A DNA stretch of 11,161 nucleotides from Oscillospiraceae bacterium (GTDB lineage: Bacteria > Bacillota_A > Clostridia > Oscillospirales > Oscillospiraceae). Under the pieces are notes generated by a model. The model was not told the DNA's origin and ran no database searches. It was given only the letters and a program-made list of their open reading frames with translations. The stretch lies in the NCBI GenBank assembly GCA_021771675.1, contig JAETOP010000119.1:1-11161 (forward strand), in the 5' to 3' direction. Positions within the stretch are counted from its first letter, which is position 1. Each line of letters opens with the position of its first letter. Position numbers and translations under genes: made by a program. Positions 3,841 to 9,137 of the stretch are shown here, in pieces.

Positions 3841-4182
3841 CTATTTGCTTTCGATAGCCCCGTCTAATGCTCCCTCAATAACCGGCAGATGTTCTTCTGG
3901 ACACTGCATCACCTTACGGCTGATGCGCTGGCGCTGGTCGTTTTCCTCTCCAGCCACAAGCTGATTGAAATACTTTGCGGCAGGCAGATCGAAAATGTGT
4001 ATAAGCTGTATGATAACTGGCAGAGCCGGTATGATATGGTTATTTTCAATGTTGATAAGATAAACTGTGGAGATGTCCGCCATTTCAGCGGCCTCCTGCC
4101 TGGACAGCCGCCGCTTCTTCCTCGCCGCCTTGACATCCGCCCCAAAGGGTTCAAAACCGGGGCAATCTCGAATATTAGCCAT
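3841..4182 (-). CDS. XRE-family helix-turn-helix regulator
   Basis: A 113-residue protein on the minus strand. Residues 14-70 form a Cro/C1-type HTH: ADVKAARKKRRLSRQEAAEM, a recognition helix around STVYLINIENN, and a hydrophobic IPALPVIIQLIHIF segment. The tail (about 84-113, with CPEEHLPVIEGALDGAI) is typical of small regulators found on Tn1549-like elements. A weak ribosome site (GGGTGA) is about 7 bases before the ATG. The only AT-rich upstream stretch carries a perfect 10-bp inverted repeat over the likely promoter, which suggests autorepression. It diverges from the two-component operon. Regulation of the element's transfer genes or the sigma-like gene is likely but not shown. Confidence 0.85.
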   Translation of the reverse strand: MANIRDCPGFEPFGADVKAARKKRRLSRQEAAEMADISTVYLINIENNHIIPALPVIIQLIHIFDLPAAKYFNQLVAGEENDQRQRISRKVMQCPEEHLPVIEGALDGAIESK

Positions 4183-4202: not shown

Positions 4203-4240
4203 TGTATACTTTACTTTTTGAATTGAAAACAAAGTATACA
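4203..4240. promoter_or_regulatory. Inverted-repeat operator upstream of the XRE gene
   Basis: TGTATACTTT at 4203-4212 and AAAGTATACA at 4231-4240 are perfect reverse complements separated by 18 bases. On the minus strand, TTGTTT lies next to the distal arm and TATACA lies in the proximal arm, 18 bases apart, so the arms cover plausible -35 and -10 elements of the XRE promoter. This geometry fits two operator half-sites for an autoregulating HTH dimer or tetramer. Who binds is inference. Confidence 0.6.
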
Positions 4241-4351: not shown

Positions 4352-5020
4352 ATGTCAAATATTCTGATTGTCGAAGATGAGAAGTCCATGCAAGACATTA
4401 TTGCGGATTATATGCAGAAAGGCGGACATACCTGTTTTACTGCTGATGATGGAATAGATGCCCTGGTCATGCTTAAAGGCAATCCTATGGATTTAATGAT
4501 CTTGGATGTGATGATGCCTCACCTGGACGGTTTCTCCGTCTGCAAAATGGCGCGGGAAATGAGCGATATGCCCATTATCATGCTGACCGCCAAAAGTGCG
4601 GAGGACGATAAGCTGAAAGGCTACGACTACGGTGCAGACGACTACATGACAAAGCCGTTCAGTCCCAAGGTGCTGTTAGCAAAGGTGAACGCCCTCCTGC
4701 GCCGTTCCTCCAATCTGTCCTCTGGAGCGATCAGCGCCGGAAAAATCCTGCTCCAGCCCAATGCCCACAAGGTCTATCTGGACGGGCAGGAAATCACCTT
4801 GACCCACAAGGAATATGAACTGCTTTCTTTTTTGATGGCAAATCCAGGACAGATTTTCAGCCGGGAGCAAATCCTAAACCGTGTTTGGGGCTATGACTTC
4901 GAGGGAACGACCCGCACCGTGGACACCCACATCAAGACCCTGCGGCAAAAGCTGGGGGACGAGGGCAGGCATATTGTCACACTGATACGCTCCGGCTATA
5001 AATTTGAGGTGACAGCATGA
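4352..5020 (+). CDS. OmpR/PhoB-family response regulator
   Basis: A 222-residue protein from ATG 4352. The receiver domain (1-115) has acidic D9/E10, phospho-acceptor D52 (in MILDVMMP), T79 (in IIMLTAKS) and K101 (in YMTKPF). The C-terminal winged helix (about 128-220) contains LTHKEYELLSFL, then FSREQILNRVWGYD, then TRTVDTHIKTLRQKLG and an RSGYKFE hairpin. The protein should bind direct repeats as a dimer when phosphorylated by the kinase encoded next. The start is uncertain: AGGAAGG at 4331-4337 also suits GTG 4343, which adds three residues. ATG 4352 gives the usual N-terminus and has GGGGTG upstream. The stop overlaps the kinase start (ATGA). The likely target is the 11-bp repeat array before the transporter genes. 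Confidence 0.92.
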   Translation: MSNILIVEDEKSMQDIIADYMQKGGHTCFTADDGIDALVMLKGNPMDLMILDVMMPHLDGFSVCKMAREMSDMPIIMLTAKSAEDDKLKGYDYGADDYMTKPFSPKVLLAKVNALLRRSSNLSSGAISAGKILLQPNAHKVYLDGQEITLTHKEYELLSFLMANPGQIFSREQILNRVWGYDFEGTTRTVDTHIKTLRQKLGDEGRHIVTLIRSGYKFEVTA

Positions 5021-6045
5021 AAGAAGCATTTTCGCTCCGTACTGTTCGGAAGAAGATTTTAATGCTGTCAAAGCTGGCAGGGCTGGTACTGATTTTTTCC
5101 TACATCCTATCCACCCGCCTGCCCGTCAGCGAGGACATTTCTTTCCTGATCTGGCTGAGTTTTCTTATGCTGCTGGTTTTGGGGATAGATTTTTTTATGG
5201 GCCGCTTTATCACAAAACCGATTGACAAACTGAACGCCTCCGCAAAACGAATGGCGGAGTTGGACTTTTCGGTCCCCTGCGAGGTAACGGCCCAAGACGA
5301 ATTTGGGCAGCTTTCCGCCAGTCTGAATACGATGGCGGAAAATCTGCAACAGGCTCTGGCCCGGCTGGAAAACTCTCTGGACGAGCGCAAGGAACTTGTT
5401 GACAGCCTATCCCACGAAATGAAAACGCCGCTGGGCATTATCCGGGCCTATGCGGAGGGCTTGCAGGACGAAACGGACGAGGCCAAAAAACAGAAATATG
5501 CCCAAGTCATTGTTTCCGAAGTGGAGCGCATGAACGATCTGATCGTAACGCTGCTGGATTTATCCGCCCTGGAAAGCGGGGCCGCTCAACTGAACATTAC
5601 CCGGTTTGACTTTGTGGAGCTGGTGGAAACAGTGGCTGGACGGCTCCTGGTAGATACGCCTGATGCCGACTTTGAACTGCAATATGAATTGCCGGAACAA
5701 AAGGTTTTCGTGCGAACCGACCAGCGGCGCATGGAGCAGGTTTTAAGCAATCTGATTATCAACGCCAAGAAAAATGTGCGCCCTGGTGGTGTGCTGGGGC
5801 TGGAACTGGCAGCAGAAGATGGAACACTTCTTTTCTCCATTTTCAATCAGGGCAGACCTATTCCAGAAAGCGACCTGCCGAAAATCTGGACAAAATTTTA
5901 TCGGGACAGTGGCACGGAATATAGTGGCTCCGGGCTGGGGCTGTCCATTGTGGCACAAGTCCTGTCCATGCAAAATCTTCCCTATGGTGCGGAAAACCAA
6001 GCGGACGGGGTGCGGTTCTATTTCTCCGTCCCCATCACCGAATAA
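5017..6045 (+). CDS. Sensor histidine kinase with minimal extracellular loop
   Basis: A 342-residue kinase. There are two membrane segments (about 14-32 and 43-61) joined by only about 10 residues, then HAMP (about 62-115), a HisKA domain with the phospho-acceptor H133 in LSHEMKTPLG, and a HATPase_c domain. The N box is N245/N249 (SNLIINAKK). The G1 region is FNQGRPIPESDLP, with N in place of the usual D, and the G2 box GSGLGL is at 304-309. With almost no outside domain, the signal is probably read within the membrane or from a partner protein, as in intramembrane-sensing kinases of Firmicutes linked to antimicrobial-peptide resistance. It is co-transcribed with the response regulator by a 4-base overlap, and its stop touches the repeat array controlling the next operon. 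The ligand is unknown. Confidence 0.92.
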   Translation: MKEAFSLRTVRKKILMLSKLAGLVLIFSYILSTRLPVSEDISFLIWLSFLMLLVLGIDFFMGRFITKPIDKLNASAKRMAELDFSVPCEVTAQDEFGQLSASLNTMAENLQQALARLENSLDERKELVDSLSHEMKTPLGIIRAYAEGLQDETDEAKKQKYAQVIVSEVERMNDLIVTLLDLSALESGAAQLNITRFDFVELVETVAGRLLVDTPDADFELQYELPEQKVFVRTDQRRMEQVLSNLIINAKKNVRPGGVLGLELAAEDGTLLFSIFNQGRPIPESDLPKIWTKFYRDSGTEYSGSGLGLSIVAQVLSMQNLPYGAENQADGVRFYFSVPITE

Positions 6046-6085
6046 TTTCACACGGATTTCACAGCGGCCTCACACCAATTTCACA
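6046..6085 (+). promoter_or_regulatory. Four 11-bp-spaced direct repeats, likely response-regulator binding sites
   Basis: TTTCACA occurs at 6046-6052, 6057-6063 and 6079-6085, and the variant CCTCACA at 6068-6074. The starts 6046, 6057, 6068 and 6079 are exactly 11 bases apart, one helical turn. OmpR/PhoB-family regulators bind this way; the TT-N-ACA heptads resemble the PhoP box of Bacillus. Four heptads would hold two dimers on one face of the DNA. The array starts directly after the kinase stop and lies upstream of the transporter operon. That the adjacent regulator binds here is inference from position and architecture. Confidence 0.72.
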
Positions 6086-6094
6086 CCACCTTTC

Positions 6095-6100
6095 TAAACT
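6095..6100 (+). promoter_or_regulatory. Possible -10 element of an activator-dependent transporter promoter
   Basis: TAAACT lies 9 bases after the last heptad. There is no good -35 at the right distance, as expected where bound regulator replaces it. Initiation 6-8 bases downstream would fall near 6106-6108, at the end of the 5' arm of the following hairpin. Confidence 0.4.
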
Positions 6101-6130
6101 CTCCTTATCACAAATAAGGAGGGTTTTTTT
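6101..6130 (+). terminator. Intrinsic terminator whose 3' arm is a ribosome site
   Basis: CTCCTTAT at 6101-6108 pairs perfectly with ATAAGGAG at 6114-6121 around the loop CACAA, followed by GG and TTTTTTT (6124-6130). This is a textbook terminator for transcripts coming from the regulator and kinase genes. The 3' arm plus GG is also AAGGAGGG, an ideal ribosome site 7 bases before the ATG at 6131. In a transcript starting upstream the ribosome site would be paired. In one starting near 6107 most of the 5' arm would be absent and the site would be open. Confidence 0.75.
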
Positions 6131-6283
6131 ATGTTCTTGGGTTTAGCGTGGTACTGGTGGCTGGTGATCGTGGTGGTGCTGATTATCTCCATTCCTTTCA
6201 AGGTCAAGTTTATGAAGTGGTGGAGCAAACGTCAGCAGGAGCAAAAGAAAAACCAGCGAGGGAAATGGGGTGACGATGAGTGA
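6131..6283 (+). CDS. Small membrane protein, 50 residues
   Basis: The ATG at 6131 is 7 bases from the strong ribosome site AAGGAGGG and the frame stops at TGA 6281-6283. Residues 5-23 are one hydrophobic, Trp-rich membrane segment (LAWYWWLVIVVV and on). The rest is a basic cytoplasmic tail (KFMKWWSKRQQEQKK) with an acidic end (GDDE). The stop overlaps the GTG start of the ABC ATPase by GTGA, so it is translated with the transporter. I do not recognise a family. Its place as first gene of the regulated operon suggests a transporter subunit, a regulator of the exporter, or a link between transporter and kinase; these are inferences. Confidence 0.72.
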   Translation: MFLGLAWYWWLVIVVVLIISIPFKVKFMKWWSKRQQEQKKNQRGKWGDDE

Positions 6284-7128
6284 TCGAGGTCAAGAACCTG
6301 ACATTCTCCTACGGCAAAGATAAGCAGGCCCTCCACGGCCTGGACTTCACCGTGGAGGATGGGGAAATTTTCGGTTTCCTGGGGCCAAATGGCTCTGGAA
6401 AGTCCACGACCCAAAAAATCCTGACCGGTATTTTGAGGGGCTACGGAGGAAAGGCATCTTTGTTTGGGCAGGATGTTTCCGCCGTCCACGGCCCAGGATT
6501 TTTTCAGAAAATCGGCGTACTCTTTGAATTTCCCTATTTGTACGCCAATTTGAGCGCCGTAGACAATCTGAACTATTTTGCCTCGTTTTATCCCAAGGAG
6601 CAGCGGCGGGATGTGGGGGAACTGCTTGACACTTTGGAATTTAAGCCGGACTTTCTGAAAAAGCCGGTATCCTCCTACTCGAAAGGGATGCGCCAGCGGG
6701 TGAGCATGGCGCGGGCGCTGGTGAGCAATCCCCAACTGCTGTTCCTGGACGAGCCTACCAGCGGCCTTGACCCCTCCGGCGCGGTGCTGTTCCGCAGAAT
6801 TATTGAGCAAGAGCGCAAAAAGGGAACTACTGTTTTCGTGACTACCCATAACATGATGGACGCTGATCTGCTTTGTGACCGGGTGGCGTTTATCTCCAAC
6901 GGAAACATTGTAGCGTTAGACACGCCCAAAAATCTGAAAGAGAAAAACAGCAATCACCGGGTCATTATTGATTATCTGTATCAGGGGCAGCGGGAAACAA
7001 AAACTGTTGAGGCCCCGGAATTGGACGCTGGCCTCCCCTTTGCCCATGACGAGATCATCAGTATCCATTCCCAGGAGCCAACCTTGGAGGATATGTTCAT
7101 CCAGTACACCGGGAGGGGGCTGTCCTGA
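6280..7128 (+). CDS. ABC transporter ATP-binding protein (ABC-2 exporter type)
   Basis: A 282-residue ATPase starting at GTG 6280. Walker A is GPNGSGKST (35-43), the signature is YSKGMRQR (133-140), Walker B is LLFLDEPTSGLD (D157, E158) and the switch histidine is H190. The Q-loop position carries E rather than Q (GVLFEFPYLY, about E83), as in some ABC-2 exporters. Residues from about 215 form the C-terminal extension usual in drug or peptide exporters. It powers the two permeases encoded downstream at the inner membrane face. The upstream GGGGTG is 7 bases from the start, and the start overlaps the small membrane gene. The stop shares its last base with the next start. The cargo cannot be read from sequence; antimicrobial export or immunity fits the linked TCS. 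Confidence 0.92.
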   Translation: MIEVKNLTFSYGKDKQALHGLDFTVEDGEIFGFLGPNGSGKSTTQKILTGILRGYGGKASLFGQDVSAVHGPGFFQKIGVLFEFPYLYANLSAVDNLNYFASFYPKEQRRDVGELLDTLEFKPDFLKKPVSSYSKGMRQRVSMARALVSNPQLLFLDEPTSGLDPSGAVLFRRIIEQERKKGTTVFVTTHNMMDADLLCDRVAFISNGNIVALDTPKNLKEKNSNHRVIIDYLYQGQRETKTVEAPELDAGLPFAHDEIISIHSQEPTLEDMFIQYTGRGLS

Positions 7129-8120
7129 TGTGGAAATGCTTTTGCTCCCTGTTCAAAAAAGATTGCAGGATGCTGGCATCTGGAAAATTCTTTCTCATGG
7201 CAATCGGCTTTCTGGCCCTCTATACGGCGTATGTGAACCTGGGCTATATCCGTTTTATGCAGATGCCGCCCTACACCGTGTATCTGTATGACCCTGCCGG
7301 AGCGCAAACAGAAGTGTCGGCCCTGGTACAATCGGTTTCGTCTATGGAGGCCATGAACGAGGCTCTGTTGGCTGACGCAAACGGTGTGGGACTGGACGCC
7401 AGCGCAGAGGATGTGCGGGTGATACTCTATGCCGGGTCAGAACTCGTTGACCACCACCGGGCGGACTATGCTCTGTCCCTGCTGCGCCCATCTTCCAACA
7501 GCACCCCGGAGATCGTCGGGACGAACACGCCAGAGCAAAAGGCCAGGAAAGAAATTACCTGTGAACTGCTGTTCTTTGAACTGGCGGCTGTGGGATTTTT
7601 GGGAATTGCCGCTGTGCTGTTTAAGGAAAAAAGTATGGGGGTCATTCGTGTTCACGCTATCCTCCCCATGCAGAAAAATCTGTTCCTCCTGTCCAAGCTG
7701 GCGGTGTTCCTGCTCTCCGATCTGGCCTTTGCGGTACTGCTTACCCTGCTGAATGTAGGATTTTCTGACGGAGCGGCGTTATTGCCTGCTGTCCTGCTCC
7801 AAACCGCAATTCTATCGCTTGTCATGGCCCTGGCGGGACTGCTCTGCGCTCTGGTGCTGAAGGACTTCCGGCAATTCACATTGGCCTATCTGGTGATTGC
7901 CATTTTTGCGGCGACACCTGTGTTCCTGTCCGCAAATACATCAGTAAAGTTTGACTGGATTAACTACCACCCGTTCTACCATGTCTATATGGGGCTAAAA
8001 AACGCCTACTTCGGCGCGGCAATTTCACCGGTCTATTATCTCGGCTCCGTGTGCGCCATCGCATTGTTGTTCCTGGCTGTGCAGCTTGCGTTCCGCCGTG
8101 AAATGGGAAAGGAGGGATGA
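7128..8120 (+). CDS. ABC-2 type permease subunit 1
   Basis: A 330-residue membrane protein. There is one N-terminal membrane segment (about 21-38), an outside domain of roughly 105 residues, then about five more segments (146-166, 190-212, 218-243, 251-268, 302-322). This is the usual ABC-2 exporter plan. After the second segment it has KEKSMGVIRVHAILPM, matching the same place in permease 2 (SEKEDGVAFVNAILPM). The cytoplasmic loop there probably contacts the ATPase. The start overlaps the ATPase stop by one base (TGATG). Proteins of this type are sometimes annotated as fluoroquinolone transporter permeases, but nothing here proves the substrate. Confidence 0.85.
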   Translation: MWKCFCSLFKKDCRMLASGKFFLMAIGFLALYTAYVNLGYIRFMQMPPYTVYLYDPAGAQTEVSALVQSVSSMEAMNEALLADANGVGLDASAEDVRVILYAGSELVDHHRADYALSLLRPSSNSTPEIVGTNTPEQKARKEITCELLFFELAAVGFLGIAAVLFKEKSMGVIRVHAILPMQKNLFLLSKLAVFLLSDLAFAVLLTLLNVGFSDGAALLPAVLLQTAILSLVMALAGLLCALVLKDFRQFTLAYLVIAIFAATPVFLSANTSVKFDWINYHPFYHVYMGLKNAYFGAAISPVYYLGSVCAIALLFLAVQLAFRREMGKEG

Positions 8121-8123
8121 GGT

Positions 8124-9137
8124 ATGAAAGGCTTGAAATACCAGCTTAAAAGCGTTCTGAAAGACAAGTTTTGCCTGATGACATTCCTACTTCCTATTGT
8201 GGTTGCTGTGGCGCTGAATTTTATGGGTTCTATCGACCTGTCCAGCCTGGGAGAACACCACTTCGGCGTGTTGGAAAATGACCTCTCCCCGCAGACTATC
8301 GCATGGCTGGAACGGTACGGCCCGGTGACGGCCTATGGAACGATGGAGGAATTGACCGCCGCCGTCAAAGAGCCGTCCACCAGCATGATCGGCGTGAAAG
8401 CGGATGGAGCAAGTATCAAAACCGTGATTGCCGGGGACGAACTGGACATTTTTCGGCAAGCGGCGGTTACACTCCCGGCCCTCTATGAACAAAGGGCGAA
8501 TGCTGAACAAGCAGAAGTCCAGATATTGGAGCGGCCTGACATTCTGGAAAGTTTTCAGGACATATTCATTCCCGCTGTGCTGATCGTCGCCATGTTCATG
8601 GGCTGCACATTCAACGCTATGAACATCATTTCTGAAAAGGAGGACGGAGTAGCTTTTGTCAATGCAATCCTGCCCATGACGCCCAGCCAGTACATTTTGC
8701 AAAAGGTGATCGTGGGCTTTCTCTGCGGAAGTCTGTCCTCCATCATAACAGCGGGTATCTGTTTCCGGCTATCCTGGCAGGATGTGTGGATGATGCTGGC
8801 CCTAATTGTGCTGTCCTCCTTTGTGGCTGCGCTGATTGGGCTGTTTATCGGAAAACTCTCCGAGAATTTGATGATCGGCGTGGTCTATATCAAAATCGTC
8901 ATGCTGCTGTTTATCGCAGTACCCATTGTATGCGCTCTGGTTGGCGTGAGCGGGCCGCTGGCTATCGTTTGCAACATCGTTCCATCCCAGCCTGCCTTTG
9001 AGGGCATTTTGGCCCTATCTGGTGGGAGTATGGGAACGGCAATAAAAGATGTTGGCATCCTGGCTGTTCACTGTATCTTATGGTTTGCACTCTATGTTTT
9101 GATTTCTACCCAGCACAAAAGATTGGTAATTCAATAA
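8124..9137 (+). CDS. ABC-2 type permease subunit 2
   Basis: A 337-residue membrane protein. It has an N-terminal membrane segment (about 17-35), an outside domain of about 110 residues, then segments near 149-169, 192-212, 220-243, 252-274 and 309-328. The shared EKxxGVxxxxAILPM motif (about 171-185) and the same topology show it is a paralogue of permease 1, so the exporter is probably a heterodimer with one ATPase type. AAGGAGG at 8109-8115 is 8 bases upstream of ATG 8124, and the gap from the previous gene is 3 bases. It is the last gene of the cargo operon; a terminator follows at 9219. Confidence 0.85.
   Translation: MKGLKYQLKSVLKDKFCLMTFLLPIVVAVALNFMGSIDLSSLGEHHFGVLENDLSPQTIAWLERYGPVTAYGTMEELTAAVKEPSTSMIGVKADGASIKTVIAGDELDIFRQAAVTLPALYEQRANAEQAEVQILERPDILESFQDIFIPAVLIVAMFMGCTFNAMNIISEKEDGVAFVNAILPMTPSQYILQKVIVGFLCGSLSSIITAGICFRLSWQDVWMMLALIVLSSFVAALIGLFIGKLSENLMIGVVYIKIVMLLFIAVPIVCALVGVSGPLAIVCNIVPSQPAFEGILALSGGSMGTAIKDVGILAVHCILWFALYVLISTQHKRLVIQ

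Follow-up and report, generated by a model that had tools for sequence, protein, structure and literature searches.

A conserved four-heptad array predicted to be the PhoB-type operator-promoter of a two-component-linked exporter operon

Four heptads repeated at an 11-bp period lie between a histidine kinase gene and an exporter operon in the window (the whole stretch of DNA analysed, 11,161 nucleotides), raising the question of whether this array is the site through which the adjacent response regulator controls the exporter. The window carries, in order, an XF1762-family gene, a CHAP-domain protein, a divergent HTH gene (3841–4182), the regulator, the kinase and the array, followed on the 3′ side by a small ORF, an ABC ATPase, two ABC-2 permeases (to 9137), a sigma-70 region-4 protein and a PemK-type protein. 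The response regulator (4352–5020, + strand; the ORF as listed begins at GTG 4343) is of the OmpR/PhoB type, with a receiver and a winged-helix DNA-binding domain (Pfam PF00072, PF00486), and the kinase (5017–6045, + strand) contains HAMP, HisKA and HATPase domains (PF00672, PF00512, PF02518), with a short loop between two hydrophobic stretches, as read from its sequence. The first gene of the exporter operon is the small ORF (6131–6283, + strand; 50 aa with a hydrophobic stretch), which has 190 homologues and gave no match when the window proteins were searched against Pfam and NCBIfam. It overlaps the start of the ABC transporter ATP-binding protein (6280–7128, + strand; PF00005), and, L044 excepted, it is present at all exporter-checked kinase loci with a close adjacent ATPase match. 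ABC-2 type permeases 1 (7128–8120) and 2 (8124–9137) follow on the + strand (both PF12698), the latter having no sequence relatives among solved structures.

The order regulator, kinase, small ORF, ATPase, permeases and sigma-70 protein is also annotated on the Pusillibacter faecalis plasmid pMM59_01, and we infer from the genes and relatives of the window that it is part of an integrative conjugative element of a Clostridia host. No kinase relatives were confirmed in viral contigs. Literature searches, mostly without subscription journals, found no paper on this cassette, which does not imply its absence from print. Between the divergent HTH gene and the regulator gene, an inverted repeat (GTATACTTT...AAAGTATAC, 4204–4239) was noticed by eye, and is a possible operator of the HTH protein.

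The array itself consists of TTTCACA at 6046–6052, 6057–6063 and 6079–6085, and a deviant third copy, CCTCACA, at 6068–6074, all on the + strand. These heptads are exactly as given in the preliminary description, which also placed the array directly 3′ of the kinase stop and 5′ of the exporter operon, in agreement with the coordinates (stop codon TAA at 6043–6045, immediately 5′ of heptad 1); it overlooked a −10-like hexamer 9 bp downstream and a hairpin at 6096–6126 that extends as far as the next gene. The best four-copy score against TTCACA at 11-bp spacing was 23 of 24 in the window, compared with maxima of 14–19 in 500 dinucleotide-preserving shuffles searched on both strands, and a word-free test (any hexamer, four copies, any period of 8–25, + strand) gave the window a score of 23, compared with a maximum of 22 over 100 shuffles. 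A chance origin of the array was ruled out by these shuffle scores. The two-heptad pattern with three mismatches allowed is weak by itself, with 3 matches against a mean of 1.01 expected, and 3 or more in 14 of 200 shuffles.

We then investigated conservation in 66 genome loci retrieved with the kinase protein alone, placing arrays by a weight matrix of the heptads only, with the clearer arrays among these loci as its training set and a threshold score of ≥30. An array was found in 58 of the 66 loci (the weakest kept being L015, L050 and L055), so that these loci and the window all show the pho-box operator form of at least two direct 7-bp repeats with 4 bp between them. Across 55 distinct sequences, the heptads hold 1.65 bits of information and the spacers 1.03 bits, and the deviation of heptad 3 recurs, with C at base 1 in 36 and at base 2 in 42 of the 55. 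The 58 loci form two clades, the TAAACT clade to which the window belongs (n = 31) and another clade (n = 27) whose kinases are 61–67% identical to that of the window; in this other clade, the spacers, hexamer interior and flanks vary, and the heptad cores and TA...T hardly do. The plasmid pMM59_01, typed as conjugative, has a full array with a matrix score of 46.2 and TACCTT 9 bp after it.

Eight loci fell outside the 58. Two heptads are kept in L056, and three in L059, where TAAACC stands at the −10 distance; L027 is truncated at a contig end, and a second kinase copy in the same genome has both array and exporter (L088). The other five (L026, L040, L048, L052 and L061) have neither exporter nor array beside the kinase, and the genome of L061 has two weak array matches only, without the small ORF. 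Genome-wide searches for the four-heptad pattern with one mismatch recovered the exporter site in all of 12 genomes with no reversed-control match, besides an extra array at L079, a second and more distant system copy in the genome of L065, and one overlapping double report. Twelve further genomes, picked for their odd loci, gave a match in 8 and none in the reversed control; in the four without a match (those of L050, L055, L056 and L059), the arrays are weak or short.

Some loci differ in arrangement. The kinase stop codon is lost in L008 and L031, where the kinase frame crosses all or part of the array, respectively, and an otherwise intact array lies about 1.8 kb (L062), 1.2 kb (L024) or 0.1 kb (L011) from the kinase stop. 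L046, L047 and L057 join an other-clade kinase (63–66% identity) and promoter to a close-clade exporter, with ATPase and permease 1 being 90–92% and 82–83% identical to those of the window; exporter modules therefore seem to have been exchanged just after the promoter.

The hexamer TAAACT (6095–6100, + strand) lies 9 bp after heptad 4, and its pattern TAnnnT, which played no part in placing the array, was found at exactly this offset in 58/58 array loci, compared with at most 5 at any other offset from 0 to 27. Thirteen different hexamers occupy the position in the 27 other-clade loci (25 distinct sequences), with the T, A and last T invariant. Seven bases after the hexamer (a 6-bp gap), a purine is found in 60/60 distinct leaders, being A in 58 (40 A and 2 G among 42 leaders of the other clade, and A in all 18 of the close clade); the 60 exclude duplicates and leaders without a recognised small-ORF start (e.g. 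L009, L015, L016, L019, L021 and L044), and the leader of the window is identical to that of L031. From the fixed TAnnnT and purine, we predict a −10 element at 6095–6100 and a transcription start at A6107 (+ strand). At 17-bp spacing, a −35 element would be ACACCA at 6072–6077. The promoter scan of the window listed no −35 consensus at the array, and a sigma-70 promoter with a −35 was rejected on this ground; the lack of a −35 consensus suits activation. By sequence, the repeats overlap the −35 region at a fixed distance to the −10 in 58/58 loci. PhoB sites likewise overlap the −35 site at phoA, according to the accessible part of PMC3348028.

Does the array follow the kinase or the exporter? 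In five genomes (those of L015, L026, L040, L048 and L052), no exporter accompanies the kinase, and a small ORF–ABC–permease unit with a full array ahead of it lies elsewhere, on a different contig in four of them and about 3.2 Mb away in that of L052. For L026, L040, L048 and L052, the separate units (L089, L083, L084 and L072, respectively) have the array directly 5′ of the small ORF, ATPase and permease, and the first three of these genomes carry kinase and array on contigs C142 and C29, C11 and C50, and C87 and C128; L015 has three good heptads at its exporter-less kinase locus and the full array–exporter unit (L087) on another contig. Where kinase and exporter lie apart, the array thus goes with the exporter, consistent with reading of the operator in trans. 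The kinases of L048 and L052 match in a single frame over only part of their length and may be damaged, so that these two loci count for less as examples of trans control.

A second sample, 299 genomes of the family of Faecalicatena orotica, was drawn by the small ORF, and overlaps the first in at least three genomes (G005, G015 and G028). The small ORF was found in 17 genomes (18 loci), and 16 of the 18 loci had an array (18–22 of 24) upstream with TAnnnT at +9. Of the remaining two, L100 has an array with CATTAT at +9, and L110 has no array and a stop within its small ORF. The kinase (E value of 1e-80 or better) was present in 20 of the 299 genomes, including all 17 with the small ORF (hypergeometric 5e-25, genomes treated as independent), and small ORF and kinase lie on different contigs in G015 and G208. 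Thus the search of related elements proposed in the preliminary description found the array after the kinase in 58/66 loci and before the small ORF, with TAnnnT at +9, in 16/18, and the pattern that it named as contrary, coding regions kept with the array lost, was looked for and seen in edge cases only (L110, L056, L059 and L100). Taken together, comparison of the loci shows that four heptads, the 11-bp period, the 9 bp to TAnnnT and the 6-bp gap to a purine travel with the exporter genes.

The adjacent regulator was considered as the protein that reads the array. Its best NCBIfam model was PhoB (TIGR02154), at 218.5 bits and under the cut-off of 296.2, which places it outside the PhoB equivalog. 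Over a set of 65 regulators that contains the window's own, identity to the latter is 98% in the recognition helix, compared with 87% in the receiver and 84% in the linker and DNA-binding domain. In PhoB, Arg201 hydrogen-bonds a guanine, and Thr194 and Val197 touch thymines, as described in the accessible part of PMC3973317. In an alignment made by eye, with the PhoB letters confirmed against 1gxp/1qqi, Thr194, Val197 and Arg201 correspond to Thr189 (kept), Thr192 and Thr196 (both changed), so that the base-reading set of PhoB is not reproduced; the three threonines are conserved in 65, 65 and 64 of the 65 regulators. We infer that the change of Arg201 to threonine and that of the G of TGTCA to T go together. 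PhoB Trp184 and Gly185, which are polymerase contacts according to the part of PMC3348028 available, align by eye with Trp179 (65/65) and Gly180 (61/65). A search of the 250 bases upstream of the regulator gene gave no heptad pair in any of 63 loci, and an autoregulatory array of this kind at that position was rejected.

The closest known arrangement compared was that of Escherichia coli pstS, where the fetched sequence has, 46 bases upstream of the gene, a repeat stretch that we take to be the PhoB site (two pho boxes) and −10. Both have four 7-bp direct repeats with an 11-bp period, of which the third is the most irregular, and in the TTTCACA register the fourth repeat is followed after 9 bp by a −10 hexamer (TATTTT in pstS); they differ in half-site (TGTCAT/C compared with TTTCACA), and pstS serves phosphate uptake, whereas the array of the window fronts an exporter. 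In Firmicutes, two-component systems of the Bce and LanFEG/Cpr type stand beside peptide-exporting ABC transporters, and share with the window a single cluster of regulator, short-loop kinase, ABC ATPase and permeases; a further likeness is the match of the window's ATPase to the lantibiotic-protection model TIGR03740, at 156.1 bits and below the cut-off of 309.75. Unlike them, the window has a kinase HAMP domain, the 50-aa small ORF and a pair of ABC-2 permeases, each of about 330 aa. The PhoP sites of Mycobacterium tuberculosis (TCACAGC-N4-TCACAGC) and Streptomyces coelicolor (GTTCACC-N4-GTTCACC), as given in the accessible parts of PMC4832192 and PMC4415409, resemble the array in their 7-bp repeats, 4-bp spacer and TCAC core, and differ in the bases flanking the heptad core and, within what those parts describe, in having two repeats in the PhoP complex rather than four. 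The recognition-helix residues of the window regulator (RTVDTHIKTLRQKL) also differ from those of PhoP.

We consider it highly probable that the array is a PhoB-type operator-promoter with pstS geometry, used by the adjacent response regulator to activate the exporter operon; the role as target of that regulator, already put forward in the preliminary description, is supported by the conserved array, its travel with the exporter, the OmpR/PhoB type of the regulator and its 98% identical recognition helix. In this model, two dimers of the upstream-encoded regulator would line up head to tail on the array, each monomer contacting a single heptad, and heptads 3 and 4, lying over and beside the −35 position, would when bound recruit RNA polymerase to TAAACT at 6095–6100, so that the exporter RNA would start at A6107. 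Binding is presumed to be phosphorylation-dependent, and its effect to be activation rather than repression. The switch would be of a kind already known; its conservation here is unusually high, and its start appears predictable to the base.

The array could instead be a regulator site read by a different host OmpR/PhoB-type regulator (for example, one responding to phosphate), or one at which the adjacent regulator represses, and we regard this as unlikely. Its half-site is near known pho boxes (the S. coelicolor GTTCACC and M. tuberculosis PhoP TCACAGC given in the accessible part of PMC4832192), and similar sites occur elsewhere in excess of the reversed control, so that another PhoB-type regulator could read it. 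Exact TTCACA-N5-TTCACA pairs, with those of exporter arrays counted, matched 55 times across 15 of 16 genomes, compared with 4 matches in the reversed control; the heptad motif offered by the preliminary description does recur as an array in relatives, but is not exclusive to this system. Among the 299 genomes, four-heptad matches with one mismatch were found in 37, of which 14 had the small ORF, and reversed-control matches in 4. TAnnnT stood at +9 in 17 of 22 off-exporter array loci examined, a chosen subset of the off-exporter matches that includes L090 and in which L114, misplaced by the script, counts as a miss. The array-to-−10 geometry thus appears to be common to PhoB-type promoters across the Faecalicatena orotica family, and what is specific to this system, among the loci compared, is the exporter linkage. 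Set against reading by another regulator, or repression, are the presence of this kinase in every small-ORF genome (17/17 of the 299-genome sample), the linkage of the array to regulator and kinase in most loci, and the fit of the absent −35 consensus with activation. Far less credible still is a functionless array, conserved through recent common descent of a mobile cassette or through coding constraint. The clade of the window is similar overall, the kinase stop abuts the array, and the kinase frame overruns it in L008 and L031, all of which would suit such an origin; yet the other clade varies in spacers, hexamer interior and flanks and hardly in the heptad cores and TA...T, and the array–exporter unit persists at places without a kinase gene. 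The retention of TTCAC cores, 11-bp period and 9-bp distance across a wider sample likewise counts against a functionless array. Conservation via the kinase coding sequence was rejected, as the array occurs without the kinase.

Off-exporter four-heptad arrays with TAnnnT at +9 include those of L131, L120, L125, L123, L129, L113, L119, L122 and L090 (array near 1500). Behind the array, L090, L120, L125 and L131 have about 100 bases and a terminator-like stretch in which the pattern 'cataat-agcc ... ggg-cactcctcat' is shared, and which may represent a short RNA or leader controlled by a different PhoB-type regulator; seven off-exporter array loci searched against Rfam gave no match.

The predicted promoter is itself overlapped by a hairpin with a T-run (6096–6126, + strand; core arms CTCCTTAT at 6101–6108 and ATAAGGAG at 6114–6121), which has 13 pairs, 4 of them G-C, a T tail and a fold z of −3.15, and has the sequence features of a terminator, terminator-like for RNA reading through from the kinase gene; a terminator scan of the window gave 9 such sites compared with 6.1 in shuffles. 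The Shine-Dalgarno sequence of the small ORF (AAGGAGG, 6116–6122, + strand) lies largely within its downstream arm. A terminator-like hairpin follows the −10 in 27 of 31 TAAACT-clade loci (2.4 expected in shuffles; L001, L010, L015 and L019 lack the simple form), compared with 3 of 27 in the other clade (0.4 expected). Terminator-like hairpins upstream of the array were sought where kinase stop and array are 16–499 bases apart (24/58 loci), and were found in 21 of the 23 other-clade loci tested out of 27 (2.1 expected); L011, the sole TAAACT-clade locus tested, had none. Their absence from the TAAACT clade is mostly due to lack of room (29/31), the gap between kinase stop and array being 0 in 26 of 31 loci; L011 and L024 have insertions, and the counted first heptad of L015 is degenerate and lies before the kinase stop. 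The hairpin and T-run of the window's clade appear to take the place of the separate pre-array terminator of most other-clade loci.

Computed folds of 17 distinct close-clade leaders (L001 excluded) ranged from −11.2 to −22.2 kcal/mol from the −10 to the ATG, and from 0 to −9.2 kcal/mol when started at the predicted +1 (−11.2 to −15.6 and 0 to −3.6 kcal/mol without L010, which has an insert), the leader of the window changing from −15.3 to −1.1 kcal/mol. This difference suggests that the upstream arm is lost in promoter-made RNA. The arm, CTCCTT (CTTCTT in L010), precedes the predicted +1 in 18/18 distinct close-clade leaders. Hairpin pairs are broken in L017 and L020, and in L001 the structure stays in promoter-made RNA because of an insert; since the 5′ arm hardly varies, the hairpin is unprovable by paired changes. 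L089 keeps the hairpin though no kinase gene was found alongside in its 3-kb locus.

With its upstream arm between −10 and +1, the hairpin would be formed only by RNA read through from the kinase gene, which it would end while hiding the ribosome site of the small ORF; RNA made from the promoter would start inside the hairpin and stay open. That the hairpin acts as such a filter of transcript origin, with read-through sensor RNA terminated and its ribosome site masked and RNA started at A6107 escaping both, is a tentative reading to which we give a nearly even chance. A serious possibility, still clearly short of an even chance, is that it is the ordinary regulator–kinase terminator, and that its overlap with the exporter start is compact packing without effect on translation. 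A plain terminator-like hairpin does lie between kinase and array in the other clade (21/23 tested), where one after the −10 is found in only 3/27; against plain packing, the downstream arm of the hairpin is the Shine-Dalgarno sequence itself, and the upstream arm stands before the predicted +1 in all 18 distinct close-clade leaders.

A short stem-loop of another kind was observed in the other clade, where 26 of 42 leaders, compared with 4.0 expected, carry it 2–6 bases from the predicted 5′ end. Its arms, counted by script because the MAFFT alignment A1 (L102 left out) mis-registered them, differ in sequence yet pair (L032–L064, L087, L095, L101, L106, L139 and others), and it is possibly an mRNA stabiliser.

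Through this analysis, DNA sequence alone yields predictions of the target site, of the −10 and of the base at which transcription starts, for a two-component system carried by an apparent conjugative element, one conjugative plasmid and many uncultured gut Clostridia. The motif and the 9-bp rule can locate exporter promoters even where the sensor genes are far away. The overlapping hairpin would be a less familiar refinement of a known kind of operator, and bears on how a cassette, once transferred, is kept off until its own sensor responds; if the filter holds true, a promoter and a terminator sharing bases would give leak-free control of a mobile exporter.
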